Positions 12,768 to 42,580 of a stretch of 45,953 bases of DNA are shown piece after piece. The notes below the pieces were generated by a model. The model had not been told where the DNA came from. It saw only the letters and a program-made list of their open reading frames with translations, and ran no database searches. Position numbers and translations under genes: made by a program. Every line of letters begins with the position of its first letter. Positions within the stretch are counted from its first letter, which is position 1. The stretch comes from Deltaproteobacteria bacterium (GTDB taxonomy: Bacteria; Desulfobacterota; JACPFL01). Location of the stretch: positions 1-45,953 of the forward strand of contig JACPFL010000141.1 in assembly GCA_016183025.1 (NCBI GenBank), in the 5' to 3' direction.

Positions 12768-13918
12768 CCGAAGAGCTCGCGGACCTTGTCCCAGAACCCC
12801 TTGCCGAGGGGGTGCGTGTCCTCCCCGCTGGCCCGGGCGAACTCCTCCAGCAGTTCCCGCTGGCGCGGGGTGAGCTTGGTCGGGGTCTCGACCGTCACGA
12901 CGACGTGCAGGTCGCCCCGCCCGTGGCCCTGGACGACCGGGAGCCCCTTCCCCCTCTGGCGGAAGACCTTTCCGGACTGCGTCCCCGGCGGGACCTTCAG
13001 CTTGACGCGCCCATCCAGGGTGGGGACATCGATCTCGGCCCCCAGGGCCGCCTGCACGAAGCTGATGGGCACCTCGCAGACCAGGTCATTCTCCCGGCCG
13101 TCTCGGATGGCCGGGAAACGCTCGCGGTCCCACCGCTGGAAGAGTGGATGGGGGGCCACCTTGAAGTAGATGTAAAGGTCGCCCGGTCCCCCGCCGTCGA
13201 TCCCCGCCCCGCCCTCGCCCCCCACGCGCATCCGCATCCCGCTGTCCACGCCAGCCGGGACCTTGAGTGACAGGGTCTTCTCCATCCTGATCCGCTTCTC
13301 CCCCCGGCAGCTCGGGCAGAAGTTCTTGATCACCCGCCCTTCACCCGCGCATCGGGTGCACGTGCGGCTGATGCTGAAGAAGCCCTGCTGGGAGCGGATC
13401 TCGCCCCGCCCGTGGCAGGAAGGACAGGTGACCAGCCCCTCGCCGGGCCGGGCCCCTGTCCCCTCGCAGCGGGGGCAGGTCTCCCCGCGGGGGAAGCGGA
13501 CCTCCTTCTCGCAGCCGAAGGCGGCCTCGTCAAACGTCAACTCGAGGGTGTACTTCAGATCCTCGCCCGGATGCCCGCGGGCCCGGCGCCGCCCCCCGGC
13601 CGTCGTGGTCCCGAAGAACCCGCCGAGGACGTCGTCGAAGAGGTCGCTCAGGGTGGTGGCGGAGAAGCCGAAGCCCTCGAACCCGAAGCCGCCGGGGGCC
13701 TCGTGCCCGAAGCGGTCGTAGCGGGCCCGCTTCTCGGGGTCACTGAGCACGCTGTAGGCTTCGGAGAGCTCCTTGAAGCGCTCCTCGGCCTCCGGGTTGC
13801 CGGGGTTCTTGTCGGGGTGATACTGGATGGCCAGCTTTCGGTAGGCCTTCTTCAGCTCCTCGGGCGTGGCGGTGTGATCCACGCCAAGCACGTCGTAGTA
13901 ATCACGCTTGGACGCCAT
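12764..13918 (-). CDS. dnaJ: Chaperone protein DnaJ
   Basis: Hsp40 co-chaperone of 384 residues that stimulates the ATPase of DnaK. The J domain has HPD at 34-36, followed by a Gly/Phe-rich linker, a zinc domain with four Cys repeats ([24 protein letters not shown] and CPSCRGEK, the last with Lys for the final Gly), and the C-terminal substrate-binding barrels. It lies 10 bp after grpE in the hrcA-grpE-dnaJ operon; dnaK, usual at this position, is missing. Its 3' end overlaps the convergent kinase gene by four bases. Heat-shock control would come from the CIRCE upstream of hrcA. Confidence 0.95.
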
Positions 13919-24098: not shown

Positions 24099-25859
24099 CT
24101 ACCGGATCTCGGCCACCGCCCGGCCGGTGGCGTGGTCGAGGTCGGCCAGGGCCAGGTTATAATTATAGATCGCGCGGAAGTTCTCGGCCCGCATCTTGGC
24201 GAAGGCGAGGACCGCGTCGGCCAGATCCTTGGCCTCGCCGATCCCGAAGTCCACGTTGGCCGCCGCCGCCACCATCCACTTCCGCGCGTTCATGTACGCA
24301 TCCTCGGAGGCCTGGATGTTCTTGCGGGCCTCCAGCAGCTCGAGGTAGGCCTTGCGGACCTGCAGCGGGATGCCCGTCTCCGCGAACTGCTTGAGCTGCT
24401 CCACCCGGAGGTGATCCGCCTCCTTCTCCCGGACCCGCCCCCGCGTGATCCCGAAGTCGATGTTGAGCTTGAACCCCAGCACCGCGCCGGCCTCGCGCGT
24501 GTTGAACTCGTCAGGGACGAACGGGTTGTCGATGACCGTGCGGTTGGGGGCGTTGCCGTAGTTGCCGCGCGCGGCGATGAAGAACTGGGGGTAGAAGTTA
24601 CTGCGCTCCGCCTCGATCAGGGCCCGTGTGGCGACCAGCCCCTGGCGCGCCTGCGTCAGCTCCGGCCTGAGCCGCAGGGCCTCGTCCACCTGGGCCTTGA
24701 CGTCGGCCACCGGGCGGGGGTCGGGGAGCAGCCGGGCCTCGGCGGGTTCCACCTCGACGTCCTCGGGCAGGTTCAGGAACGCCCGCAGGGCCGCACGGGC
24801 CAGCTCCAGCCCCTTTTCGGCCTCGTTCCGGTTCCGCCGGACCTCGGCCGCGAAGGTGCGCAGCTTGTGCAGGTCCACCTCGTCGGCCTCCGGCGAGCCC
24901 CGCCGCAGGAACCCCTCGGTCTTGGTGATCTGCTGATCGAGCTGGTCCTGGATCTCCAGGATCAGGTTCTGCACCTCCTTGGCCAGCAGGAGTCCATAGT
25001 AGATCTGCTTGGTCCGCAGGATCACGTCCTGGACCTTCTCGTCGACCTTCGCCTCCTGGACCAGGATGTTGCGCTCGGCCGCCTCCCGGAACCCGCTGAT
25101 CTTGCCAAAGGTGTACAGGGGCTGGATCAGGGTGATCGTGATCTTCTCGAAGGCGTCCAGCCCCGAGATGCGGGTCTTCGTGTCGGGGGAGGAGACCTGG
25201 TCGCCCCGGGCCTGGGGTGAGGGGCCGAGCAGCCCAATCGCTTCCCCCTGAGGGAGGCGCGCCGAGTCGGCCTGCTGCTTCTTGGCCTTGGCGGCCTCCA
25301 CCTGCATCCGGACCTCGCGGACCTCGGGGCTCACGTTCACGGCCCGGCGCACCGCGTCCCGCAGGGTGATGATCACGCGCGGCGGCCCCGGGGCCTGGCC
25401 GCGGGCCGCCCCGGCCCCGCCGGCGGCCAGGAATCCAGCCAGCAGCACCAGCACCCTTCGCCCTCGCCTGCGCTGCACCATGGCTCGTCCCCCCCCCGGC
25501 CTGATGGGCGTCTCGGAGCCGCCCGGGCTCAGCCGGACGTACTTCTCCCCGATCAGCCCCTTGCTCCGGACCGAGGCGATCACGTCCTCCTGGAGCTTGA
25601 CGTCCTGCCGGATGAACATCCGGACGCGGGCCGCATACTCGTGCAGGGTGATGGCCTCCACCCGGCCCACCTCCACGCCGGCGATCTCCACGGCAGCCCC
25701 GGGCTTGAGCCCGGCCACGGTGGCGAAATCAGCGTAGACGCGGTAGCCCGCCCTGCCGACCACCTCCAGCCTGCCCAGCCGGATGACCAGGTAGCCCAGG
25801 GCCAGCAGCCCGACCAGCACGAAGACCCCGACGACAAGTTCCACGGTGGCCTGCTTCAT
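24099..25859 (-). CDS. MlaD-TolC continuous reading frame (MCE domain fused to outer-membrane efflux protein)
   Basis: One frame of 586 residues holds two proteins. Residues 1-125 are an MlaD: membrane helix (5-27) and MCE domain (AGLKPGAAVEIAGVEVGRVE, then GLIGEKYVRLSPGG), lacking the last ~25 residues usual in MlaD. Residue 127 (Met, DNA 25481) begins a second export signal (RRRGRRVLVLLAGFLAAGGA) followed by a 430-residue TolC/OEP protein with two similar halves (ITLRDAVRRAVNVSPEVREV, and EALRLRPELTQARQGLVATR). The junction lies at a run of nine G (minus strand), which also resembles a ribosome-binding site six bases before the inner ATG. It may be a true fusion, two overlapping products, or an indel in the run. 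Confidence 0.85.
   Translation of the reverse strand: MKQATVELVVGVFVLVGLLALGYLVIRLGRLEVVGRAGYRVYADFATVAGLKPGAAVEIAGVEVGRVEAITLHEYAARVRMFIRQDVKLQEDVIASVRSKGLIGEKYVRLSPGGSETPIRPGGGRAMVQRRRGRRVLVLLAGFLAAGGAGAARGQAPGPPRVIITLRDAVRRAVNVSPEVREVRMQVEAAKAKKQQADSARLPQGEAIGLLGPSPQARGDQVSSPDTKTRISGLDAFEKITITLIQPLYTFGKISGFREAAERNILVQEAKVDEKVQDVILRTKQIYYGLLLAKEVQNLILEIQDQLDQQITKTEGFLRRGSPEADEVDLHKLRTFAAEVRRNRNEAEKGLELARAALRAFLNLPEDVEVEPAEARLLPDPRPVADVKAQVDEALRLRPELTQARQGLVATRALIEAERSNFYPQFFIAARGNYGNAPNRTVIDNPFVPDEFNTREAGAVLGFKLNIDFGITRGRVREKEADHLRVEQLKQFAETGIPLQVRKAYLELLEARKNIQASEDAYMNARKWMVAAAANVDFGIGEAKDLADAVLAFAKMRAENFRAIYNYNLALADLDHATGRAVAEIR
25489..25497 (-). other. Nine-base homopolymer at the MlaD/TolC junction
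   Basis: C9 on the plus strand (G9 in the gene) ends about eight bases before the inner TolC ATG at 25481. With eight G the MlaD frame would stop about 40 codons later; with ten it would stay open much longer. The run could serve as a ribosome-binding site for tolC or be an assembly or phase-variation hotspot. Confidence 0.7.
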
Positions 25860-29747: not shown

Positions 29748-31121
29748 TCAGCCTGGCTCTTCGTCCGGCCCAGCTCCCAGCCGGTACTTCTTGATCTTCC
29801 GGTAGAAGTTCCGGAGGCTGATCCCCAGGCTCTTGGCCGCCCGGGCGCGGTTCCCCCCCTCCAGCTCCAGGATCCGGGCGATGTGGGCCCGTTCCAGGCT
29901 GGCCAGGGTCACGGGCGCCCCGGAAGGCCCCGCCCGGGCCTCCGGACTCCGCCCGGGGCCGAGCGTCAGGTCCTCGGGCCCGACGACCGGCCCCGTCGAG
30001 AGCAGCACGGCCCGCTCGATCACATTGGCCAGCTCCCGGATGTTCCCTGGCCAGTCATACTGCTGGAGGAGGTCCAGGGCCCGGGCGCTCAGCCGCTTGG
30101 GCTCGCCCGCGGCCGGGCGGTTGGCCTCCAGGAAGTAGGCGACCAGAAGCGCGATGTCCGAGCGACGGTCGCGGAGCGGCGGGACCGCAATGGCCACGAC
30201 GTCCAGGCGGTAGTAGAGGTCTTCCCGGAAGGTCCCCCGGCGGACCTCCGCCAGGAGGTCGCGGTTGGTGGCGCTGATCAGCCGCACGTCCACCTTGCGC
30301 AGCTTCGTCTCCCCCACGCGGTGCAGCTCCCCCTTGTCCAGGACCCGCAGGAGCTTGGCCTGGAGCGCCGGGCTCATCTCGCCCACCTCGTCGATGAACA
30401 GCGTGCCCCCATCGGCCACCTCGAAGAGCCCCGGCTTGTGCTCCGCGGCGCCGGTATAGGCCCCCTTGGCGTGGCCGAAGAGCTCGTTCTCCAGCAGGTT
30501 CTCGTTGAAGGCCGCGCAGTTCACCGCGATGAACGGGCGGTGGGTCCGGGCGCTCAGCCGGTGGATGGCGCTGGCCACCAGCTCCTTGCCAGTGCCCGTC
30601 TCCCCCGTGATGAGCACTGAGGAACTCGACGGGGCGACCCGGGCGATCAGGGCCTTGACCTGCTCCACGGCGGGGCTCCGGCCGATGATCGCGTCATGGC
30701 GCTCGCGCCGGTGCAGCTCCTCCCGGAGCAGGACGTTCTGACGGGCGAGCTGGGCCTTGTCGTGGGCCTTGGCCACCAGCACCTCCAGCTCCGAGAGCTG
30801 GCAGGGCTTGGGCAGGTAATCGTAAGCCCCGAGCTTCATCGCCTCCACGGCGGTGTCCACGGAGGCGTGTCCGGTGATCATGATGACTTCGAGCGAGGGC
30901 TGCTCCTCCTTGAGCCGCCGGAGCAGCTCAATCCCGTCCATGCCGGGCATCCGGATGTCCACGAGGGCGACGTCGAACTCCTCGCCCTTCACAGCCTCCA
31001 CCGCCGCCTCGCCCCGGTCCACGGGGCGGACCATCAGCCCCTTGCGGGCGAGGCGGTCCCGGACGAGGTGGCGGAACGGCTCCTCGTCGTCCACGATGAG
31101 GACCCTGATCTCCCGTTCCAT
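29748..31121 (-). CDS. Sigma-54-dependent response regulator (NtrC/AtoC type)
   Basis: A 457-residue enhancer-binding protein: receiver domain with DD at 11-12, phosphorylatable Asp55 (VDIRMPG) and Lys105; AAA+ domain with Walker A GETGTGKE (173-180), sigma-54 contact loop GAYTGA (220-225, Tyr instead of the usual Phe) and Walker B LFIDEV (241-246); and a C-terminal Fis-type helix-turn-helix (LELEGGNRARAAKSLGISLR). Encoded 38 bp after the heme-c histidine kinase, its obvious partner. Likely targets are the -24/-12 sites at 33021 and perhaps 10628. Confidence 0.94.
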   Translation of the reverse strand: MEREIRVLIVDDEEPFRHLVRDRLARKGLMVRPVDRGEAAVEAVKGEEFDVALVDIRMPGMDGIELLRRLKEEQPSLEVIMITGHASVDTAVEAMKLGAYDYLPKPCQLSELEVLVAKAHDKAQLARQNVLLREELHRRERHDAIIGRSPAVEQVKALIARVAPSSSSVLITGETGTGKELVASAIHRLSARTHRPFIAVNCAAFNENLLENELFGHAKGAYTGAAEHKPGLFEVADGGTLFIDEVGEMSPALQAKLLRVLDKGELHRVGETKLRKVDVRLISATNRDLLAEVRRGTFREDLYYRLDVVAIAVPPLRDRRSDIALLVAYFLEANRPAAGEPKRLSARALDLLQQYDWPGNIRELANVIERAVLLSTGPVVGPEDLTLGPGRSPEARAGPSGAPVTLASLERAHIARILELEGGNRARAAKSLGISLRNFYRKIKKYRLGAGPDEEPG

Positions 31122-31159
31122 CGCGCTCTCCTAATCCGATGCCCCCGGCGCGCCCGGGG

Positions 31160-32812
31160 CTAGGCGGGCTCCGGCCCGAGCGGCACCCGCGGCTGGCGGG
31201 GGAGGAGGATCCAGAACGTCGAGCCCGCGCCGACCTGGCTCTGGACGCGGATCTCCCCGCCCAGGCTCTCCACGATGCGGTAGGAGATGGCCAGCCCCAG
31301 GCCCGTCCCCTTCCCCGGCGGCTTGGTCGTGAAGAACGGGTCGAAGATCTTGTCGAGGTGCTCGGGCGGGATGCCGCAGCCGGTGTCCGCGACCTCCACC
31401 ACCACCTGGTCTCCCTCGGTCCGCGCCCCGACCCGGACCTCGCCCTTGCCTTCGATGGCGTCGAGGGCGTTGTTCAGGATGTTCAGGAACACCTGCTGGA
31501 GCTGGGCGGCGTCAGTGGTGATGGGCGGAAGGTCCGGCGCGTACGTGACGGTGATGGCCTTCTGCTGCAGCCGGGCCTGGTACTCGACGAGCCTGACGGT
31601 CTGGTCGAGGAGGGCCGGCAGGAGGACCTCGGAGAGCCGGAACTCCTCCTTGCGGGCGAAGTCCAGCAGATTCCGGGTGATGTCCCGGCAGCGGTAGGCC
31701 TGCTGGTGGATCATCTGGAGGTGGCTTCGCAGGAGCGCCAGCCCCTCGCCCTCCACGCGCTCGAGCCCCTTGATCCGGTCCAGGAGGTCCTCGCTGTAGC
31801 CAGCCACCGAGGCCAGAGGGTTGTTGATCTCGTGGGCCACTCCAGAGGCCAGCCGCCCCAGAGAGGAGAGCTTCTCGGACCGCAGGAGGATCTCCTGGGA
31901 GGCCCGCAGGCACCGCGCCATCCCGTTCAGGCTCTCGACCAGGTCGCCGATCTCGTCGTTGGAGGCCCTTGTCTTCACGACCTTGTCCAGGTTCCCCGCG
32001 GCGATCTCCCGGATGCCGCTGACGGTCTCCCCGATCGGCTTCACGACGATCCGACGGAGGATGGTGGTCAGGGCGAGGGCCACCAGCACGATAATGCCGA
32101 AGGCGATCCCCAGCATCTCCCGGGTGCTCCGCCGGATCTCGGCATTCATGCCCTCCAGAGAGGTGGAGATCGCGACGACCCCTCGGATCTGGTGGTCGGC
32201 CCCGTGGCACCACTGGCAGCGGTCCTCGTTCGCCATCGGCTTGAGGTAGGTGATGACCTCCCGGCCGTTGAGCTGCTCCCGGTAGCTGACGTCCCGCTGG
32301 GCCTGGACCGCCAGGCGCAGGCGGGCCAGGTCAATCGGCGCTCCCTCCGGGTTCGGGCGGGCACGGCTGTGCCGGATCCCCTCCTCGAGGTCGCGCAGGA
32401 TGGCATAGGAGGCCGGGTCCTGCTGGAGGTGGCTCGCCACGACCCGCATGGTTTCCAGGTCCCGGAAGGCCTGGCGCCCGTCTAGCCGAAAGATCTGCAC
32501 CCGCTCCAGGTCGGGGATGGCCTTCAGGTCCTCGACGAGTTGCCCGGCGATGTCGCCCCGGCCCTGAACCATGATGTTCTGGATACTGCGGGCCACAGAG
32601 GCCGTGATCAGGTCCGCGTTCTGCCGCCCCTGCTGCATCAGGAGTGCGCGCTCCCGCGTGATCATGAGCAGGGTGAGCCCCCCGAACCCCAGGACCAGGA
32701 TGATGATGATCACGCTGGTGATCTTGCAATCCAACCGGCACTGGAGGGGGCGCAGGCGCGGGGCAGGCAGACGCGGGGGCAGGAGCGGATCGTCGCGACC
32801 TGAGGGCACCAT
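31160..32812 (-). CDS. Sensor histidine kinase with c-type heme motif in its periplasmic domain
   Basis: A 550-residue membrane kinase. Helix 1 (about 31-51) and helix 2 (about 232-252) enclose a periplasmic domain of 180 residues containing CQWCH (199-203), a c-type heme attachment site, shortly before helix 2. The layout recalls the DUF3365/Tll0287-like heme sensors. HAMP (about 253-305), HisKA with His327 ([14 protein letters not shown]), and HATPase motifs DTGCGI and GTGLGL follow. I chose the ATG at 32812, five bases after GAGG. First gene of a kinase-regulator operon, divergent from the cytochrome/ACIII operon, so a redox or gas-sensing role is inferred. Confidence 0.93.
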
Positions 32813-33020
32813 CATCACCTCACGATACTACTCTCAGAGGTGGCAGCCTGTCACCCACCCACTGCCATCTTGACACGAATCCAGGTCGCCGGTGCCACCC
32901 GAGTCCTCCGGATCCCCCCTCGAGGGCCTGAGGAAAGAGCCCGCAGGCTCCGGGCAACCCCCGATGGGGACAGTAAACTTGGGGGTCACGCGACCTGGCC
33001 TGGCTTCTGTCTACCACGCC

Positions 33021-33037
33021 CCGGCACATCTGATGCT
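33021..33037 (+). promoter_or_regulatory. Putative sigma-54 promoter of the cytochrome/ACIII operon
   Basis: CCGGCACATCTGATGCT has GGCAC at -24 (GG at 33023-33024) and TGC at -12 (GC at 33035-33036), 12 bp apart as RpoN requires. Mismatches to the consensus are C for T before GG and A for T in the -12 element. The start would be near 33048. A sigma-54 activator gene is the next-but-one neighbour. Confidence 0.55.
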
Positions 33038-33128
33038 AGCCACTGCCCACAGCTTTCTGCAAAGTCTCCGCCAAGTTCAGATGGGTGGAAGCCTCTTGCC
33101 ACCTTCGGTTTCCGCCACATACAATCGC

Positions 33129-33145
33129 CCCGGACTTTGTCCGGG
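33129..33145 (+). other. RNA hairpin abutting the first ribosome-binding site of the ACIII operon
   Basis: CCCGGAC (33129-33135), loop TTT, and GTCCGGG (33139-33145) form a perfect 7-bp stem. Its 3' arm shares bases with the GGAGGAG ribosome-binding site (33144-33150) of the cytochrome gene, so it may modulate translation or stabilise the mRNA. Confidence 0.6.
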
Positions 33146-33154
33146 AGGAGGCCA

Positions 33155-33532
33155 ATGATGCGACGCTGGATCGGCGGGCTGATCGTGCTCCTGGGGGGAA
33201 TGGTCCTGGCCGCGCCAGCCCTGCCGGCGACCAAAGGTGACCCGCAGGCTGGCAAGGCCATCTACACGCGGCTGTGCGCGCCCTGCCACGGGGAGTCCGG
33301 GAAGGGTGACGGCCCGGCTGCGGCGAACCTGCCCGACAAGCCTCAGGACTTTACCGACGCGAGCGCCCTGGGAAAGGCGACCGACCAGGATCTGTTCAAC
33401 GTCATCAAGAACGGCGGGGCCGTGGTCGGCAAGTCCAAGTTCATGGTGCCCTTCGGCTCCAAGCTCAGCGACGCGGACATCCGCAACCTCGTCAGCTATA
33501 TCCGGACGTTCAGCAAGAGCCGCTCGCGATGA
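33155..33532 (+). CDS. Monoheme c-type cytochrome, exported
   Basis: A 125-residue protein: signal peptide (WIGGLIVLLGGMVLAAPALP) and a class I cytochrome c domain with CAPCH near residue 44 and a later Met (FMVPFG) as probable sixth ligand. The ...DADIRNLVSYIRTF helix near the C terminus is typical. The ATG at 33155, or the adjacent ATG at 33158, follows GGAGGAG. First gene of the operon; its stop overlaps the next start (ATGA). It could be an electron acceptor of the ACIII complex encoded downstream. Confidence 0.9.
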   Translation: MMRRWIGGLIVLLGGMVLAAPALPATKGDPQAGKAIYTRLCAPCHGESGKGDGPAAANLPDKPQDFTDASALGKATDQDLFNVIKNGGAVVGKSKFMVPFGSKLSDADIRNLVSYIRTFSKSRSR

Positions 33533-34443
33533 GGAGCCCCCGGCCTCGGGGACCCGCTCACCGGGTCGCCACGCTGGGGCAGCCTGGGGGGACCGGCCCC
33601 GTGGGGGGATCGCGCTCCGTGCGGACGCTCCTCGTTCTGATCGGGCTTGGGCTCCTGCCGGGGTGTGCGGTCGGGCCGCCTGGGCAGCCACCCCCTCCGG
33701 AGCAGTCGTGGCTGTTGCGCGTCGCCGGCATCCCGCCGGGGGCGCTCTACCCGGCGATCACCGCGGTCCCGGGCGAGCCGGGCCGCCCGCTGGCCGCGCT
33801 GCCGGTCACGCTCCGCACGGCGGTGGAACGGGGCCGGGACCTGTGGGTCCAGGAGACCTGGGGGAGGACAGGCCTGGCCTGCGCCGTCTGTCATCCTGAT
33901 GCCTCGATGGTGCGCGGCTGGGCGTCGGGCTACCCGGCTGCCTGGCTCTCGGATGGCGACCGCGACTTCCGCGTGAAGACGCTGGCTGAGGTGATCGCCG
34001 GGGCCGTGCAGGGCCATCTCGGTCTGGCGCTTTCGCCGGATCACGAAGCGGTTCGGGACCTCGAGGCCTTCCTCGCCTGGCAGGGCGACGGCGCGCGGCT
34101 CCGCCCGGGGGTGAGCGGGATCAACCGTCCAGCGGAGGGCTGGCTGGCGGAGTTGCAGGGCAGCGTCGAACGGGGCCGGAGCCGGTTTGTCGCGGCCTGC
34201 GGCCGCTGTCACGGGCCGGGGGTCCTGGCGGGAGCCGCCGCAGGGTTCCCCGCGGTGGTCACCGGGGCCGGAGTGCTCGGGCTGGACGCCTTCATTGCGC
34301 GCCACGCCCGGGCGGAACTCGCGGCGTCGTGGTCACGCCCGGAGCTGGCAGACCTCACGGCATACGTGGTCTCGCTGAGCAAGGGGTGGCCGCTCAGGGC
34401 CGGCCGCCTGGTCCGGCTCGAACGCCAGAGGGGGAGGCAATGA
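33529..34443 (+). CDS. Diheme c-type cytochrome lipoprotein
   Basis: A 304-residue protein with a basic N terminus, a hydrophobic stretch and a lipobox LLPGC (Cys46), then two heme motifs, CAVCH (118-122) and CGRCH (224-228), each in a small cytochrome c-like domain, the layout of SoxA-like or diheme electron carriers. A GTG at 33619, with GGGGGGA upstream, would give a tidier lipoprotein signal. It overlaps both neighbours by four bases, so it is tightly coupled. I know of no standard ACIII subunit of this kind; it is an accessory cytochrome. Confidence 0.85.
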   Translation: MRSPRPRGPAHRVATLGQPGGTGPVGGSRSVRTLLVLIGLGLLPGCAVGPPGQPPPPEQSWLLRVAGIPPGALYPAITAVPGEPGRPLAALPVTLRTAVERGRDLWVQETWGRTGLACAVCHPDASMVRGWASGYPAAWLSDGDRDFRVKTLAEVIAGAVQGHLGLALSPDHEAVRDLEAFLAWQGDGARLRPGVSGINRPAEGWLAELQGSVERGRSRFVAACGRCHGPGVLAGAAAGFPAVVTGAGVLGLDAFIARHARAELAASWSRPELADLTAYVVSLSKGWPLRAGRLVRLERQRGRQ

Positions 34444-35423
34444 GGGGACGGTGGTGGGTGGCGGGGGGGCTGGGGCTTCTCGTGGCCGTGAACGGCTGCG
34501 CGACCGTGCGCGACGGCGGTCGCCACACCGCGGTGGTGGCCGGTGAGGTCGTGGACGCCCAGGGCCGGCCGATCACGACCGGGCTGGTGCTGCTGGAGCG
34601 GGGGAAGCTCTACGATGACCTCTTCGAGCGCGGGGGGCTCATCGACAGCCGGGGCCGGTTCGCCATCGCGGTGCAGGGCGGCGGGCCGTGGGGGCTTCAC
34701 GTGTACAGCGAAGGCTACATGTACCATCCCCGGCAGATCCAGGTGGCGGAGGGCCAGGTCAACGAATACCGGGTGGTGCTCCCCCCTGACCCCAACCTCA
34801 GGGACAACCCGATCATCGGCCGGGTAGCCTTCGAGCCGCAGCCCGACGGGACGGTCCTGGTGAAGATGGACGTCACGGACCCCGACAACAACCTCGGCCC
34901 CCAGGTCCTGGCCCTGAACGGCGTGACGGGCGAGAACTTCGTCATGCAGCCCCCGGTGCCGATGCGGGACCCGAAGGCGAACTTCCCCCAGGGGACCTAC
35001 ACCCTCCACTATCGACCCCGCGGCGTCCCCCTCGACACGAAGAGCTGGTTCTTCGTGGTGGCCGATCACCAGTGCAACGTCTCCCAGATCGCGGCGTACC
35101 CCTTCACGGCGCGCGCCCCCCGGGCGGCCGTCACCCCCCCGCCACCCCCGGCTGAGCTGGCGCGGCTCACGCCGGTCGAGCGCGGGCGGCGGACCTTCGA
35201 GGCGCGGTGCGCGCTCTGCCACAACCCGGACAGCAAGGAGGAGAAGATCGGCCCCGGGCTGCAGGGGGTGTTCAAGGAGCGACAGCTCCCGGCTAGCGGA
35301 CGGCCGGTCTCGCCGGAGGCGATCACCCGGCAGATCCAGCAGGGGGGCGACAGGATGCCGCCGCTGAGCGACATCACCGAACAGACCCTGCAAGACCTCC
35401 TCGCGTACCTGCGGACACTCTAG
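34440..35423 (+). CDS. Lipoprotein with carboxypeptidase-like regulatory domain and C-terminal cytochrome c domain
   Basis: A 327-residue lipoprotein (VAVNGC, Cys20). Residues 30-120 resemble the beta-sandwich carboxypeptidase regulatory-like domain (VVAGEVVDAQGRPITTGLVL, GRFAIAVQGGGPWGLHVYSE), the middle is a second beta-rich region, a Pro-rich linker follows (about 232-238), and a C-terminal cytochrome c domain has CALCH (257-261) and Met306 as probable ligand. The ATG at 34440 overlaps the previous stop. The fusion of a carbohydrate/protein-binding type fold with a heme domain is unusual and its role is unknown. Confidence 0.82.
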   Translation: MRGRWWVAGGLGLLVAVNGCATVRDGGRHTAVVAGEVVDAQGRPITTGLVLLERGKLYDDLFERGGLIDSRGRFAIAVQGGGPWGLHVYSEGYMYHPRQIQVAEGQVNEYRVVLPPDPNLRDNPIIGRVAFEPQPDGTVLVKMDVTDPDNNLGPQVLALNGVTGENFVMQPPVPMRDPKANFPQGTYTLHYRPRGVPLDTKSWFFVVADHQCNVSQIAAYPFTARAPRAAVTPPPPPAELARLTPVERGRRTFEARCALCHNPDSKEEKIGPGLQGVFKERQLPASGRPVSPEAITRQIQQGGDRMPPLSDITEQTLQDLLAYLRTL

Positions 35424-35446
35424 CCAGGCTCAGGCCAGGGCCCTCC

Positions 35447-35983
35447 ATGGACCATAGGCCAGGACCCCGGAGGAGAGCTCGGCTGATCGCGGCTGCCCTG
35501 CTCGTGGCGGCCGGGATCGTGACGGCCACCCTGTGGCCCCGGGGGCTGCGGCCCGGCCGCGGGAGCGAGCCCCCGCCCCAGCCCATCGCCTTCAGCCATC
35601 GGGTGCACGCCGGAGAGAACCAGATCCCGTGCCTGTACTGTCACGTGTATGCGCGCCACGGGGCCGTGGCCGGCGTCCCCTCGGTCCAGCGGTGCATGGG
35701 CTGCCACACGATCACCGCTGTCGCGAGCGCCGAGGTCCAGAAACTCCAGGGCTACTGGATGCGCCAGGAGCCCATTGCCTGGGTCCGCGTCTTTCGGCAG
35801 CCCGACTTCGTCTTCTTCCAGCACCGGCCCCACGTGCAGGCTGGGATCGCGTGCCAGACCTGCCATGGGCAGGTCGAGCGGATGGACCGGGTCCGGGAGG
35901 CGGTCGTGCTGGACATGGACCGCTGTGTCGCCTGTCACCGGGCCCAGCAGGCCTCCATCGACTGCCTGACGTGCCATCGCTGA
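35447..35983 (+). CDS. actA: Alternative complex III subunit ActA (pentaheme cytochrome c)
   Basis: A 178-residue protein with an N-terminal membrane anchor (about 11-29) and five heme motifs: CLYCH (62-66), CMGCH (83-87), CQTCH (136-140), CVACH (160-164) and CLTCH (173-177), the pentaheme set of ActA. In the complex it passes electrons from the Fe-S chain of ActB to the monoheme subunit and soluble acceptors. It lies 23 bp after the fused lipoprotein gene and 8 bp before actB. Confidence 0.94.
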   Translation: MDHRPGPRRRARLIAAALLVAAGIVTATLWPRGLRPGRGSEPPPQPIAFSHRVHAGENQIPCLYCHVYARHGAVAGVPSVQRCMGCHTITAVASAEVQKLQGYWMRQEPIAWVRVFRQPDFVFFQHRPHVQAGIACQTCHGQVERMDRVREAVVLDMDRCVACHRAQQASIDCLTCHR

Positions 35984-35991
35984 GGGGGAGC

Positions 35992-38970
35992 ATGAACGTC
36001 ACCCGCCGGGACTTCCTCAAGGTGCTCGGCACCGGAGCCGCCGCGAGCGTGACCGGGTGTTCGGCCCCGCTTCCGGACAAGCTCATCCCGCTGGTCATCC
36101 CAGCCGAGGAGGTCATCCCGGGCGAGGCGACCTGGTATGCGACGGTCTGCCGGGAATGCCCGGCGGGGTGCGGGATGCTCGTTCGGACCCGTGAAGGACG
36201 CGCGGTGAAGGTGGAGGGGAACCCTGACCACCCGGTGAACCAGGGCCGCCTGTGCGCCCGTGGCCAGGCGGCGGTCCAGGGACTCTACAACCCGGACCGG
36301 ATCCGGCAGCCGTTGCGCCGGAGTGGGACGGGAACGCTGGAGCCGGTGAGCTGGGAAGAGGCCGAGCAGCTCCTGGCCGGTCATGTGGCCAGGCTGCAGG
36401 CAGAGGGCCGCCCAGGACGGGTTGCGGTGGTCGCGCCGCTCGTCACGGGGAGCCTGGCACAGCTGATCGAGACATGGAGCCAGGCCGTGGGGGGGCGGCC
36501 CCCGTTGTTCGTGGAGCCGCTGGCTGCGCACGCGCTGCGCGCAGCCAACCGGCTGAGCTTCGGCCTGGATGCCATCCCCTCCTATCAGATCGAGACCCTG
36601 GAACTCCTCGTCTCCTTCAGCACGGACTTCCTGGAGACCTGGCTCTCCCCGGTGGAGCTGGCCCGGCAGTTCGCGGCCATGCGGGCCCCCCGTGCCGGGC
36701 GGATGGGCCGATTCGTCTATCTGGGACCGCGCCTCTCGATGACCGCGACCAATGCGGACGAGTGGCTCCCGCTCCGACCGGGCACGGAGGGGCTGGCGGC
36801 GCTCGGCATGGTGCACCTCATCTTGTCCGAAGGGCTGGGGGCCGGGGTGCCCGCGGAGGAGGCGGGCCGGCTCCGGCAACTCGTGGCCGCGTACACGCCC
36901 GAGGCGGTGGAGCGGCGGACCGGGCTCCCCGCCCGGGACCTGACCCGCCTGGCCCGGAGCCTGGCACAAGCCCGGCCCGGGCTGGCCCTGGGCGGCGGGA
37001 CAGTCGGAACCACCCGGAGCGCGACGACCACGCAGGTGGCAGTGAACCTGCTGAACTACGTCGCCGGGCACGTGGGCAGGGCGATCCAGTTCGGGCCGAC
37101 ATCGGCCCTGGGCCGGGCGGCGACCTACCAGGAGCTGCTCGGCCTTGTCCAGGCCATGGCGCGGGGCGAGATCGACCTGCTCCTGCTGGCCGGGGTGAAC
37201 CCGCTCTTTTCCCTGCCGCCGGCCGCCGGGTTCCAGCAGGCGCTGGCCAAGGTCCCGTTCGTCATCAGCACCGCGAGCTTTCCTGACGAGACCGCCGCGC
37301 ACGCGCACCTCGTGCTGCCGGAGTCCACGCCGCTCGAGAGCTGGGGGGACCATACCCCCTGGGACGGCGTGCATGGGCTGATGCAGCCCGCCACGACGCC
37401 GCTCTACCAGACGAAGCCGCTTGGCGACGTGCTCCTCTCGGTGGCCCGGCGCGTCGGCGGGGCCATGGCCGCGCGGCTCCCGTGGGCGACCTTCTACGAT
37501 GCCCTGCGCGACCGCTGGCGAGAGCTGCAGCGCCGTCTGGCTCCCGCCACGCCCTTCGAGACCTTCTGGGCCGAGGCCCTCCGCCGCGGGGGGGTCTGGG
37601 AGGCGATCCCCCCGAAGCGGGTGCGCCTGAGCCCCGCGGTCTTCCGGACCACCTTCGTGGAACCCGCCTTGAGCGGCAGCCAGGATGATCCGTTCGTGCT
37701 CCTCGTCTACCCATCGATCTTCCGCTACGACGGCCGCGGGGCGAACCGGCCCTGGCTGCAGGAGCTCCCCGATCCTGTCACCGGCATGACCTGGGAGAGT
37801 TGGGTGGAGGTCAACCCCCAGGACGCCCGGCGTCTGGGGATCACCCAGGGCGACCTCGTCGCCCTGCGCTCGCCGCACGGGCAGGTGGAACTCCCCGCCT
37901 ACCTCTACGCTGGAGTGCAGCCGGGCGTGGTCGCAGTGCCGCTGGGACAGGGGCATACCCGCTACGGGCGCTATGCCCAGGGGCGGGGAGCCAACCCCCT
38001 GGCCCTGCTCCCCGCTGAGCCCGAAGCGCCCTCCGGGGCCCTGCCGTGGCTGGCGACCCGGGTCCGGCTCACCCGGACCGGCCGGAGGCAGCCCCTGGCG
38101 ATCGTGGGCGGGAGCGAGCGGCAGGAGGGGCGGGGGATCGCCCAGAGCATTTCGCTCGCTGACCTGCTGCGGGATCACGGCGCGGGAGGCGCGGCACGAC
38201 CGGGCGCGGCCAAGGACGGCGCGGACGGGCACAAGGCCCCGCCCCTGTATCCCCCGCACCCGCACCCGGTCCATCGCTGGGGGATGGCCATTGACCTCAA
38301 CGCCTGCAACGGCTGCGGCGCCTGCGTGGCGGCCTGCTACGCCGAGAACAACATCCCGGTGGTCGGCAAGGAGCAGGTGGCCAAGGGACGGGTGATGTCC
38401 TGGATCCGGATCGAGCGCTTCATCGAGGGGCCGGCCGAGCGCCCGGAGACCCGCTTCCTCCCGATGCTCTGCCAGCACTGTGACAACGCCCCGTGCGAGC
38501 CGGTCTGCCCCGTGTACGCGACCTACCACAACCCCGAGGGGCTCAACGCCCAGGTGTACAACCGCTGCGTCGGCACCCGGTACTGCTCCAACAACTGCCC
38601 CTACAAGGTCCGCCGCTTCAACTGGTTCACGCACAAGTGGCCGGAGCCCCTCCACCTCCAGCTCAACCCGGACGTCACGGTCCGGGAGATGGGGGTGATG
38701 GAGAAGTGCACCTTCTGCGTCCAGCGGATCAAGGGTGGCCAGGCCCGGGCCAAGGCCGAGGGGCGGAAGCTCCGCGACGGGGAGATCGTCCCGGCCTGCG
38801 CGCAGAGCTGCCCGGCGCAGGCCATCGTCTTCGGTGACCTCAAGGACCCGCAGAGCGAGGTCGCCCGCCTGGCCCGGGACCCGCGGGGGTACCGGGTGCT
38901 GGAGGAGCTGAACACGCTGCCCGCCATCACCTACCTGCGCAAGGTGCAGCCGGGACCATTGGGGAGCTGA
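35992..38970 (+). CDS. actB: Alternative complex III subunit ActB (molybdopterin-like and Fe-S domains)
   Basis: A 992-residue periplasmic subunit. A Tat signal (TRRDFLK at 4-10) ends near a possible lipobox (SVTGC, Cys23). The first ~740 residues are a molybdopterin-oxidoreductase-like domain that retains an N-terminal CX2CX3CX27C set (Cys53, 56, 60, 88), though I see no Mo-ligand Cys or Ser in the expected region. From about residue 763 follows an Fe-S domain with four Cys groups (CNGCGACVAAC, CQHCDNAPCEPVC, CVGTRYCSNNC, CTFC...CAQSC). The ATG at 35992 follows GGGGGAG; the upstream in-frame stretch overlaps actA and is not coding. Confidence 0.95.
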   Translation: MNVTRRDFLKVLGTGAAASVTGCSAPLPDKLIPLVIPAEEVIPGEATWYATVCRECPAGCGMLVRTREGRAVKVEGNPDHPVNQGRLCARGQAAVQGLYNPDRIRQPLRRSGTGTLEPVSWEEAEQLLAGHVARLQAEGRPGRVAVVAPLVTGSLAQLIETWSQAVGGRPPLFVEPLAAHALRAANRLSFGLDAIPSYQIETLELLVSFSTDFLETWLSPVELARQFAAMRAPRAGRMGRFVYLGPRLSMTATNADEWLPLRPGTEGLAALGMVHLILSEGLGAGVPAEEAGRLRQLVAAYTPEAVERRTGLPARDLTRLARSLAQARPGLALGGGTVGTTRSATTTQVAVNLLNYVAGHVGRAIQFGPTSALGRAATYQELLGLVQAMARGEIDLLLLAGVNPLFSLPPAAGFQQALAKVPFVISTASFPDETAAHAHLVLPESTPLESWGDHTPWDGVHGLMQPATTPLYQTKPLGDVLLSVARRVGGAMAARLPWATFYDALRDRWRELQRRLAPATPFETFWAEALRRGGVWEAIPPKRVRLSPAVFRTTFVEPALSGSQDDPFVLLVYPSIFRYDGRGANRPWLQELPDPVTGMTWESWVEVNPQDARRLGITQGDLVALRSPHGQVELPAYLYAGVQPGVVAVPLGQGHTRYGRYAQGRGANPLALLPAEPEAPSGALPWLATRVRLTRTGRRQPLAIVGGSERQEGRGIAQSISLADLLRDHGAGGAARPGAAKDGADGHKAPPLYPPHPHPVHRWGMAIDLNACNGCGACVAACYAENNIPVVGKEQVAKGRVMSWIRIERFIEGPAERPETRFLPMLCQHCDNAPCEPVCPVYATYHNPEGLNAQVYNRCVGTRYCSNNCPYKVRRFNWFTHKWPEPLHLQLNPDVTVREMGVMEKCTFCVQRIKGGQARAKAEGRKLRDGEIVPACAQSCPAQAIVFGDLKDPQSEVARLARDPRGYRVLEELNTLPAITYLRKVQPGPLGS

Positions 38971-38993
38971 GGGGGGGCCCAGGCCTGCGGACG

Positions 38994-40316
38994 ATGGAGG
39001 CGCCGCTCACGTACGCCCGGGTGGACCGGGACCTCCTCACGACGCTGCGGGCGCCAGGGAGGCTCTATTACGCCCTGCTGGCCGTGGACCTGGCGGTCCT
39101 GGGCTGGGCGATCTATGCCTGGCGCTATCAGCTTACGACCGGCCTGGGCGTGGCGGGGATCACCCACCCGGTCATGTGGGCGGTCTACATCACGAACTTC
39201 GTCTTCTGGGTCGGCATCGCCCACTCCGGCACGCTCATCTCGGCCATCCTCTACCTGTTTCGGGTGCGCTGGCGCCCGCCGGTCTACCGGAGCGCCGAGG
39301 CCGTGACCGTGTTCGCCCTGATGACGGCCGGGCTGTTTCCCATCATCCACCTGGGCCGCCCCTGGTACTTCTACTGGCTCCTCCCCTACCCGCAGATGGG
39401 CGGGCTCTGGATCAACTTCCGCTCTCCGCTGATCTGGGACGTGTTCGCGGTCCTGACCTACATGACCGTGAGCGTCATCTTCTTCTTCACGGGGCTGGTC
39501 CCGGACGTGGCCGTGGCGCGCGACCAGGCGACCGGGTGGCGGCGCCGGATCTACGGGCTACTCGCCCAGGGGTGGCAGGGAACGGATCGCCAGTGGCGCC
39601 ACTACACGAGCGCCTACCTGCTGTTCGCCGGGCTGGCCACGGCGCTCGTGGTCTCGGTCCACAGCGTGGTCTCCTGGGACTTCGCCATGGCCATCCTGCC
39701 GGGGTGGCACAGCACGATCTTCGCCCCCTACTTCGTCGCCGGGGCCATCCACTCGGGGCTGGCCATGGTCCTGGCGCTCCTCATCCCGCTGCGGCGGGCC
39801 TTTCGCCTGGAGGCCTACCTCACACCAGACCACCTGGAGCGCCTGGCCCAGCTCACCATCGTCACGGGGCTGATCGTGGGGTATGCCTACATGGTCGAGT
39901 ACGGGATGGCCTGGTACACCGGGGACCCCGCCGAGCAGGCGAGCTTCCTGTGGCGGGCCACCGGGCATTACGCCTGGGCCTTCTGGCTCATGGTCGGCTG
40001 CAATGTCCTCGCCCCCCTCGGCTTCTGTGCCCGGCAGGTCCGGAGAAGCATGCCCTGGCTCCTCGGGATCCTGGCCAACCACGGCCGGGAAGCCGCCCGC
40101 ACCGCTGCCCGGCACCCCGATCCCCAGCGTCTCGCGGTGCGCACGCCGGAAAGCCCGGCCGTTTCGGCGGCCGACGCCTGGTTCTTCCTGTGGTTCCTGC
40201 TCTTCGCCAAGACGCTCCCGGTGGTCTCGCTCTGGGAGGTGAAGGAGCTGCTGCCGGTGCCGCGGCGAGATGGCCGGGGCCCGGTGCAGGAAGGGCCGGC
40301 AGGGAGACAGCCGTGA
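38994..40316 (+). CDS. actC: Alternative complex III subunit ActC (NrfD-like quinol-binding membrane subunit), atypical C-terminal part
   Basis: A 440-residue membrane protein of the NrfD/PsrC family that takes part in quinol oxidation. Typical segments are HPVMWAVYITNFVFWVGIAH, FPIIHLGRPWYFYWLLPYPQ and WSTTIFAP-like WHSTIFAPYFVAGAIHSG. After RRSMPWLLGI, where homologues continue with a helix containing GMWLERF, this protein has about 36 hydrophilic residues (NHGREAARTAARHPDPQR...) before the last helix (WFFLWFLLFAKTLPVVSLWE). Neither other frame supplies the missing helix, so a simple indel does not explain it. The stop overlaps the next start (GTGA). Confidence 0.92.
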   Translation: MEAPLTYARVDRDLLTTLRAPGRLYYALLAVDLAVLGWAIYAWRYQLTTGLGVAGITHPVMWAVYITNFVFWVGIAHSGTLISAILYLFRVRWRPPVYRSAEAVTVFALMTAGLFPIIHLGRPWYFYWLLPYPQMGGLWINFRSPLIWDVFAVLTYMTVSVIFFFTGLVPDVAVARDQATGWRRRIYGLLAQGWQGTDRQWRHYTSAYLLFAGLATALVVSVHSVVSWDFAMAILPGWHSTIFAPYFVAGAIHSGLAMVLALLIPLRRAFRLEAYLTPDHLERLAQLTIVTGLIVGYAYMVEYGMAWYTGDPAEQASFLWRATGHYAWAFWLMVGCNVLAPLGFCARQVRRSMPWLLGILANHGREAARTAARHPDPQRLAVRTPESPAVSAADAWFFLWFLLFAKTLPVVSLWEVKELLPVPRRDGRGPVQEGPAGRQP

Positions 40317-40828
40317 GGGCGCGGGAGAGCTTCGTGGTGGGATTCTTCCCCCACCTGGACGGGCTGCTGGCGGCGATCGCCGCGCTCAAGGGCGCGGGGT
40401 TCCTGGAGCTCCAGGCCCTCTCGCCCGTGCCCCGACACGAGATCGACGAGGCCCTGGGCGCGCATCGCAGCCCGGTGCGGGTCTTTACCCTGCTCGGTGG
40501 GCTCGCCGGCTGCGCGACCGGCTTCGCCCTGACCATCGGGGCCGCGCTCCACTACCCGCTGATCGTGGGGGGGAAGCCGATCATCTCCATCCCGCCGTTC
40601 GTCGTCATCGCCTACGAGCTGACGATCCTGCTCGGGGCCCTGGGGACGCTGGTCGGGCTCCTGCTCAGCGCGGGGCTCCCGCGCGCACGGCGGTGGCCGG
40701 GGTACGATCCAAAGTTGGCCGGCACCTGCTTCGGCCTGCAGGTCCGGTGTCCCACCCTGGAGACCTCGAGGGCAGAGGCGCAGATGCTCGCTGCCGGTGC
40801 CCGGGAGGTGCGTCGTGTGGAGGGGTAG
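40313..40828 (+). CDS. actD: Alternative complex III subunit ActD (DUF3341)
   Basis: A 171-residue protein with the DUF3341 pattern: FVVGFFPHLDGLLAAIAALK, then LQALSPVPRHEIDEALG, two transmembrane helices (about 60-80 and 100-125), and the C-terminal segment around CFGLQVRCP. It is an integral subunit with a cytoplasmic N-terminal domain. The GTG at 40313 overlaps the actC stop and follows GGGAGACAGCC. The final ~12 codons overlap the start of actE. Confidence 0.93.
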   Translation: MRARESFVVGFFPHLDGLLAAIAALKGAGFLELQALSPVPRHEIDEALGAHRSPVRVFTLLGGLAGCATGFALTIGAALHYPLIVGGKPIISIPPFVVIAYELTILLGALGTLVGLLLSAGLPRARRWPGYDPKLAGTCFGLQVRCPTLETSRAEAQMLAAGAREVRRVEG

Positions 40829-41336
40829 GCAGCCTGGCGGGTTCTGGCTCCCGGTGGTGCTCATGCTCGCCGCAGCCTTCTCGCTCCTGACCGGCGCGCG
40901 GCTGGCCTCAGGCTTTCCGTGGAGCCGGGACATGAAGAACCAGCCGTCGGTGAAGCCCCAGGAGGCCCCCCGCCCCCCTGCCAGGGGGACCGTGCCGCGC
41001 GAGCGGTGGGAGCCCCCGATCCCGACCAAGGGCGCGGCCACGGCCCTCCGGAACCCGGTCCAGGCCACACCAGCCTCCATCGCGAACGGCCGGCGCCTGT
41101 ACCAGATCTACTGCCTGCTCTGTCACGGGGCCGACGGGAAAGGGTTTGGGCCGATCACCGACAAATACGTCCCGGCCGCGGATTTGACCGGGAAGGCCGC
41201 GCGCGCGCAGCCCGACGGAGCCCTGTACCAGGCCATCCGGAGCGGGGGCGCGCTCATGCCCCGGTACGATGACGCCCTGACGCCTTCGGAGCGGTGGGAC
41301 GTCATCAACTACCTTCGGAGCCTGCAGCAGCCGTGA
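40815..41336 (+). CDS. actE: Alternative complex III subunit ActE (monoheme cytochrome c)
   Basis: A 173-residue membrane-anchored monoheme cytochrome. The anchor (FWLPVVLMLAAAFSLLTG) is followed by the ActE-type stretch MKNQPSVKPQEAPRPPARGT, then the heme motif CLLCH and Met in ALMPRYDD as sixth ligand. The GTG at 40815 follows GGGAGG by six bases and overlaps actD by 14 bases; 40797 is the alternative. It receives electrons from ActA. Confidence 0.93.
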   Translation: MWRGRQPGGFWLPVVLMLAAAFSLLTGARLASGFPWSRDMKNQPSVKPQEAPRPPARGTVPRERWEPPIPTKGAATALRNPVQATPASIANGRRLYQIYCLLCHGADGKGFGPITDKYVPAADLTGKAARAQPDGALYQAIRSGGALMPRYDDALTPSERWDVINYLRSLQQP

Positions 41337-42580
41337 ACGCCCGTCCTCACGCGCGCCCGAGATGGCCATCGGGACCGGTCATTGGCGGGCTGGTCGCGCT
41401 CCTCCTGCTGGGGGGTGCGGGGTTTCTCGAGGGCCTGGCGGCCGAGCCGTCCCGGGCCTGGCCGGTCTACCTGGTGAACTTCCTGTTCTGGGCAGGGCTG
41501 GCCCAGGCCGGGGTCACCTTCGCGGCGCTGCACCAGATCACCGGATCGCGCTGGGGGCCCGCAGTCCGCCGTCTCGCTGAGGGGATGGGGGCCTTCCTCC
41601 CCGCCGCACTCCTCCTCTTCCTGCCGCTTGTCCCCGGCCGGGCGTGGCTCTTCCCCTGGCTGCAGGAGCCGCTCCCGCAGAAGGCCTGGTGGCTGGACGC
41701 CCCTAGGCTCTTCCTGCGGGATGGGGGCGGGCTCATCCTGCTCACGTGGGTCAGCCTCCTGTTCGTCCGCTACTCGCTCCGCCCGGAGCTGGGGGAGGCC
41801 ATCGCCCAGGGGCAGCTCCCGCCACGGGGTCTGGCCGCGTGGCTCGCCAACGGCTGGCAGGGGCTCGCTGCCGAGCGCGCGCGCTCCCGGCGGGCCCTCA
41901 GCGTCCTGGCCCCAGCGGTCCTGCTGATCTACTGCCTGGTCTGGAGCCTGCTCGGGTTCGACCTCGTCATGTCGCTGAGCCCGGCCTGGTCGAGCACGCT
42001 CTTCGGCGCCTACATCTTCCTCACGACCTTCTACCTCGGCCTGGCCGGCCTCGCGGTGCTCGCCGTCCTGCTCCGGAAGCCGTGCGGGCTGCTGGGGCAT
42101 GTCGCGTCGGCCCAGCTCCACGACCTGGGCAAGCTCCTGCTGGGCTTCTGCATGCTGACCGGGTACTTCTTCTTCTCGCAGTACCTCGTGATCTGGTACG
42201 GCAACCTGCCGCGGGAGTACGGGTTCTTCCTGGTGCGCGGGGAAGGGGCCTGGGGGCCGCTCGCCTGGACGGTGCTCGGCCTGGTCGTCTTCCTGCCGTT
42301 CGTCGTCCTGCTGAGCCGCCGGGCCAAGGAGCGACCGGGGAGCCTGCTGGCCCTGACGCTGGTGATCGTGGTGGGGATGTGGCTGGAGCGCTACGTGTTG
42401 GTCGTCCCCTCGCTCGCGCCGGCGCGCGGGCCGGCCTTCGGCTGGGTGGAGCTCTCCACCACGCTCGGCTTCCTGGCCGCCGCGGCCCTCAGCTACGCGG
42501 GCTTCGTGCGGATCCTCCCCCCGGGCGCGCTGGTCCCGGAGCCCGGCCGGGAGGCGCTCCCCCCGGACCGCGCCTGCTGA
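41333..42580 (+). CDS. actF: Alternative complex III subunit ActF
   Basis: A 415-residue membrane protein, paralogue-like to ActC but without quinol-site features I can confirm. About ten helices are visible, including WPVYLVNFLFWAGLAQAGVT near the N terminus, FDLVMSLSPAWSSTLFGAYI, and LTLVIVVGMWLERYVLVVPS, which holds the GMWLERY motif that ActC here lacks. The GTG at 41333 overlaps the actE stop. It is the last gene of the operon: no terminal oxidase gene or actG follows, and a hairpin lies 32 bp after the stop. Confidence 0.92.
   Translation: MNARPHARPRWPSGPVIGGLVALLLLGGAGFLEGLAAEPSRAWPVYLVNFLFWAGLAQAGVTFAALHQITGSRWGPAVRRLAEGMGAFLPAALLLFLPLVPGRAWLFPWLQEPLPQKAWWLDAPRLFLRDGGGLILLTWVSLLFVRYSLRPELGEAIAQGQLPPRGLAAWLANGWQGLAAERARSRRALSVLAPAVLLIYCLVWSLLGFDLVMSLSPAWSSTLFGAYIFLTTFYLGLAGLAVLAVLLRKPCGLLGHVASAQLHDLGKLLLGFCMLTGYFFFSQYLVIWYGNLPREYGFFLVRGEGAWGPLAWTVLGLVVFLPFVVLLSRRAKERPGSLLALTLVIVVGMWLERYVLVVPSLAPARGPAFGWVELSTTLGFLAAAALSYAGFVRILPPGALVPEPGREALPPDRAC

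Follow-up and report, generated by a model that had tools for sequence, protein, structure and literature searches.

The window, by which the whole analysed stretch of 45,953 nucleotides is meant, encodes a sensor histidine kinase and a response regulator on one strand and a cytochrome-rich operon on the other, with kinase and operon diverging from one shared gap of 336 bp (32819-33154; Table 1). The kinase and regulator genes lie on the same strand with 38 nt between them, and this adjacency argues strongly that their products are a cognate pair. The regulator is of the NtrC/AtoC type, combining a receiver, an AAA+ domain whose GAFTGA-type loop reads GAYTGA and an HTH, and RpoN is encoded in the host genome.

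Genes of the operon overlap or sit about 25 nt or less apart. Six of them have the make-up of an alternative complex III (ACIII), namely actABCDEF with a pentaheme ActA, an Fe-S/Mo-like ActB, NrfD-like ActC and ActF, and a monoheme ActE. ActF was named by similarity to the ActF of relatives, Pfam giving no match, and ActB is up to 64% identical to that of NC10 loci. The diheme SoxA/TsdA-type cyt2 was an unexpected gene to find ahead of an act operon. A preliminary description of this DNA, made from the sequence alone, had reported a CQWCH motif in the periplasmic domain of the kinase, a sigma-54 response regulator beside it and a divergent nine-gene operon with ten heme motifs, and all three were borne out: the CQWCH lies in a domain matching PF21563, the regulator has the expected Pfam domains and GAYTGA, and the operon holds 10 CXXCH motifs (1+2+1+5+1) against 0.31 expected in Markov-resampled sequence.

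Table 1. Two-component and cytochrome/act genes, with the elements of the gap between them.
Feature	Position	Strand	Basis or remark
Sigma-54-dependent response regulator, 457 aa: receiver (Asp55), AAA+ with GAYTGA, Fis-type HTH	29748..31121	-	Pfam Response_reg, Sigma54_activat, HTH_8; AtoC/NtrC-like; motifs
Sensor histidine kinase, 552 aa: periplasmic c-heme Cache domain, HAMP, HisKA, HATPase	31160..32818	-	Pfam Mcp40H-20_sensor, HAMP, HisKA, HATPase_c; PDB 3b42/3b47 by sequence
CQWCH heme c attachment motif of the kinase, residues 201-205	32204..32218	-	Motif search
Met83 codon of the kinase, putative second axial heme ligand	32570..32572	-	49/49 aligned sensors; 3b47 alignment; Met60 ligation in PMC8396549
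Sigma-70-like promoter facing the kinase, GTGACA-18-TAGTAT	32825..32854	-	Consensus match
-24/-12-like site CCGGCACATCTGATGCT, weak	33021..33037	+	Consensus match with 3 mismatches
Sigma-70-like promoter facing the operon, TTGCCA-18-TACAAT	33096..33125	+	Consensus match, 10/12; chance 0.2% per gap shuffle
Palindrome/hairpin CCCGGAC-TTT-GTCCGGG, perfect 7+3+7	33129..33145	+	Directly before cyt1 ribosome-binding site
Whole divergent operon: three extra cytochromes and ActABCDEF	33155-42580	+	
cyt1, monoheme cytochrome c (CBB3-type)	33155..33532	+	Pfam; 52% homologue precedes second act operon (L169)
cyt2, diheme SoxA/TsdA-type cytochrome	33529..34443	+	PF21342
cyt3, CarboxypepD_reg-like domain fused to monoheme cytochrome c	34440..35423	+	Pfam; start placed at ATG 34440; 40% homologue beside act in L024
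ActA, pentaheme cytochrome	35447..35983	+	
ActB, molybdopterin-like and Fe-S subunit	35992..38970	+	
ActC, NrfD-like quinol-binding membrane subunit	38994..40316	+	
ActD	40313..40828	+	Matches in relatives, start codon (GTG 40313)
ActE, monoheme cytochrome c	40797..41336	+	ORF start given, true start possibly downstream
ActF, NrfD-like membrane subunit	41294..42580	+	ORF start given, true start possibly downstream

Two further observations were made elsewhere in the window. An open reading frame at 24099-25859 (minus strand) begins with a match to MlaD, ends with one to OEP (TolC-type) and stands beside MlaE and an ABC ATPase, a possible fused lipid-transport protein; an extra CXXCH (CPSCH) occurs outside the operon in a long open frame at 13426 (minus strand). 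The host bin comprises 308 contigs at 90% completeness, the membership of this contig in it being assumed. In an RpoB tree the host groups with full support with Geobacteraceae, Myxococcaceae and deltaproteobacterial MAGs and not with NC10, unlike its ActB, which is nearest to NC10.

The c-heme sensor domain and its relatives

The H, N, G1, F and G2 boxes of the kinase are all intact. Its periplasmic part scores 43.9 bits with PF21563 (Mcp40H-20_sensor; cut-off 27) and matches the structures PDB 3b42 (E 6.7e-8) and 3b47 by sequence comparison, while PF11845 itself gave no match at E 0.01. A single-sequence AlphaFold2 model of the sensor alone, with a pLDDT of 48, was too poor for a fold search. 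By its profile match and CXXCH motif, the kinase is assigned to the sensors with an sCache_heme domain, the name that a 2026 preprint gave to c-heme Cache domains, in which CXXCH is conserved in 99% of about 20,000 sequences (PMC12889525). Met83 is invariant in 49/49 aligned sensors, a set for which CXXCH was a selection criterion and Met83 was not, and it aligns with a Met of 3b47, matching the axial heme ligand of the Geobacter sensors, in a stretch where the alignment is weak. Because CXXCH is accompanied by this unselected, invariant Met, the sequence gives good support to the prediction that the kinase binds heme through His/Met ligation.

As in the sCache_heme sensors already described (PF11845/PF21563; GSU0582, GSU0935; PMC12889525), a periplasmic Cache-type domain with CXXCH lies between two membrane helices and is followed by HAMP and a signalling output, and their distal-ligand Met aligns with Met83. 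The output of the GSU0582/GSU0935 type is a chemoreceptor, whereas here it is a kinase of the AtoS-like sort, partnered by a sigma-54 regulator. In GSU0582/GSU0935 the Met60 ligation changes with redox state, and NO and CO are bound reversibly (PMC8396549); one membrane-bound member of the family behaves like an NO sensor and forms no stable O2 complex (PMC12889525, preprint). Of the signals suggested in the preliminary description, redox state and NO thus fit the relatives, and oxygen as first choice was rejected because the biochemistry of those relatives speaks against it.

The host genome yielded one PF21563 protein, the kinase beside the act operon. Sensors of this degree of similarity (E up to 1e-12) occur in 12/395 other genomes at phylum level and in 49/119 relatives of an NC10 genome, and 6/43 act-carrying genomes gave a match; no relatives were found in the viral contigs searched. 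Best-scoring matches to the sensor half are Methylomirabilota proteins, the full-length ones being 31-39% identical. Among 29 Methylomirabilota sensor loci inspected, 28 have a cyclase output and the remaining one is incomplete; in relatives of NC10 (Methylomirabilota; L088, L108-L136) this sensor and a nucleotide cyclase form a single fused protein, usually with one copy per genome. The sensor half of these fusions is alike, and the output is a cyclase there and a kinase here. In Geobacteraceae (L092/L099, L093/L101), a c-heme kinase stands beside a similar NtrC-type regulator, not near act, and on ORF reading these pairs adjoin methionine synthase-like and transketolase-like genes. The statement that c-heme sensors are rare in histidine kinases was too strong, as the count for G. 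sulfurreducens alone is twelve c-heme signal transducers, of which eight are annotated as two-component proteins. The kinase is therefore a newly found member of a c-heme two-component family that has already been described, in an unusual genomic place.

Promoter-like elements in the shared gap

The gap had been said to hold a -24/-12 site and a palindrome, and ACIII expression to be switched via RpoN. Both elements exist. The -24/-12-like site has GG and GC correctly spaced but departs from the consensus at three positions, and a site of such quality arises on the plus strand in 5% of gap shuffles, so that it does not amount to a significant promoter ahead of the act operon. A second site of equal quality lies in the gap in the opposite direction, and the whole window has no excess of such matches (23 found vs 31.5 expected). 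As evidence for an operator, the palindromes, which include an imperfect one at 32838-32870, were rejected, because perfect arms of at least 7 nt occur in 17-37% of shuffles, that is, at chance level.

The gap also contains two sigma-70-like promoters, one for each direction, which the preliminary description had not mentioned. The promoters of the gap are consensus matches, not mapped starts. The sigma-70-like element facing the operon ends 30 nt upstream of the cyt1 start codon and scores better than the -24/-12-like site about 60 nt upstream of it; it is a candidate for the sigma-70 start upstream of 33155 that the preliminary description had named as counting against its model. At least two sigma-70-like sites occur in 0.05% of gap shuffles, and the whole 46-kb window holds only eight of such quality. 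These sites favour ordinary sigma-70 transcription as the predicted mode for both units, and the regulator could still act on sigma-70 transcription in the gap or have other targets. The evidence now leans against the -24/-12 promoter proposed for an RpoN-switched ACIII.

Linkage to act genes and other ACIII copies

For comparison, 80 ActB loci from GTDB genomes and 18 from the phylum of the host were surveyed, giving 98 other loci, of which 61 have at least 4 kb upstream and many end at contig edges; the nearest genomes compared were of the same phylum and none of the class or order of the host. Lack of linkage between the pair and act genes in relatives had likewise been named as counting against the model, and neither a c-heme kinase beside act nor a full-length match to the sigma-54 regulator upstream of it was found at any of the 98. 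By strict similarity, cyt2 stands beside 0, cyt3 beside 1 and cyt1 beside 3 of these loci. At one NC10 locus (L008) a sigma-54 regulator and a non-heme kinase lie downstream of actF; the regulator was considered as a conserved partner, but the kinase is without CXXCH and the regulator stands on the opposite side of the operon.

The host genome contains a second complete ACIII operon of the form cyt1-actABCDEF, with an ActB 57% identical to that in the window (L169:6128-13909, contig C212). A beta-propeller gene lies upstream of it. A third, divergent act-like cluster (L170:711-7294, contig C211) encodes a pentaheme ActA-like protein, ActB in two ORFs, an ActC-like protein and a cytochrome that has five hemes and tandem cytochrome c domains. 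No c-heme kinase was found in the available stretches of L169 and L170. A nitrosative-stress/repair-like cluster (L199:6348-12106, contig C235) includes a COX1-like protein with DUF542/ScdA_N, a SUOX-like protein, a hemerythrin and a cytochrome c/EB_dh fusion, and is the one place in the genome where PF00115 matches were found. NirS-based denitrification was rejected for this host, the Cytochrom_D1 matches being short, weak and typical of beta-propellers.

The ACIII operons of Rhodothermus, Flavobacterium and Methylomirabilota have the complete actABCDEF order seen here, and the present operon differs from them in the three cytochrome genes in front, the divergent c-heme kinase and the other copy in the genome. 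That ACIII is usually treated as constitutive, offered as the standing view, was not supported, since ActB protein is higher in aerobic than in fermentative Melioribacter. Another c-heme signalling protein near a conditionally expressed menaquinol-oxidising cytochrome complex is the two-component protein GSU0599 of G. sulfurreducens, whose locus number is close to those of the inducible quinol oxidase genes cbcBA (GSU0593-0594; PMC8396549, PMC7726332, PMC12307469). It differs in having two heme motifs and in its neighbour, Cbc being a bc-type complex and not an ACIII. GSU0599/cbcBA of Geobacter is the closest working parallel. According to Joshi et al. 2021, cbcBA is reportedly controlled by the sigma-54 regulator BccR (GSU0598).

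Proposed function and alternative readings

We judge it an even call that the pair is a working c-heme two-component system whose most likely role is to adjust the adjacent second ACIII and perhaps other genes. This explanation is preferred because of the PF21563 and PDB matches, the invariant Met83, the intact motifs, the adjacency of kinase and regulator, the presence of RpoN, the siting here of the sole PF21563 protein and the second ACIII, together with the kinase/NtrC-type pairs of Geobacteraceae, the Met switching by redox state or NO in relatives, the sigma-70-like promoters in both directions and the nitrosative-repair-like cluster at L199; doubt comes from the lack of the pair at 98 other act loci and from the weak -24/-12 site. 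By analogy with the Geobacter sensors, the heme would be loaded in the periplasmic domain, and in the reduced state its iron would have His205 and Met83 as ligands. Oxidation, or NO displacing Met83, would alter the Cache dimer and, via HAMP, set autophosphorylation of the kinase at His329, from which the phosphate would pass to Asp55 of the regulator; the phosphorylated regulator would then drive RpoN-dependent promoters. The neighbouring operon would encode a second, specialised ACIII (quinol:cytochrome c oxidoreductase) with three extra cytochromes, adjusted in response to NO or to a shift in the periplasmic redox poise, with sigma-70 transcription probably running from the gap in both directions and the other ACIII copy serving ordinary respiration.

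Position within this locus is what hints that the pair might control the act operon, and a serious competitor, though one we consider probably wrong, is that it regulates genes elsewhere or itself, the act adjacency being a one-off gene order. Such a reading would account for the missing linkage at the 98 other act loci, for the unrelated genes that adjoin the Geobacteraceae pairs and for the act operon having its own sigma-70-like promoter, but divergent genes that share one gap, here of 336 bp, commonly point to regulation, and the only PF21563 protein of the genome adjoins a redox operon. The original model, by which the phosphorylated regulator and RpoN activate the act operon at 33021-33037 with a start near 33048, rested on adjacency in one genome. 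The spacing of GG and GC and the RpoN gene agree with it; the three mismatches, the chance frequency of such a site and the better-scoring promoter between it and the start codon, directly before 33155, make it improbable. Loss of heme sensing by the domain, with the pair surviving as a decaying or cross-wired relic, would suit the single copy and the lack of close relatives among the genomes compared, yet this is very hard to credit with CXXCH, Met83 and Gly114 intact, as are the motifs of kinase and regulator.

Returning to the preferred explanation, its furthest-reaching form would have the c-heme kinase sense NO or redox poise and, via the sigma-54 regulator, switch the cell between two ACIII, the regulated one being wired to three dedicated cytochromes. 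No dedicated regulator of an ACIII was found in the literature searched, and this would be the first dedicated signal-transduction control of such a complex, an outcome we regard as unlikely. If the pair does not control the operon, what remains is a clear new case of a c-heme kinase partnered by a sigma-54 regulator, from a lineage of deltaproteobacterial grade that is distant from the studied species. If it does, it would reveal how one or the other of two ACIII copies is selected in a bacterium that has both, and the c-heme Cache kinases would gain a respiratory target outside Geobacter.
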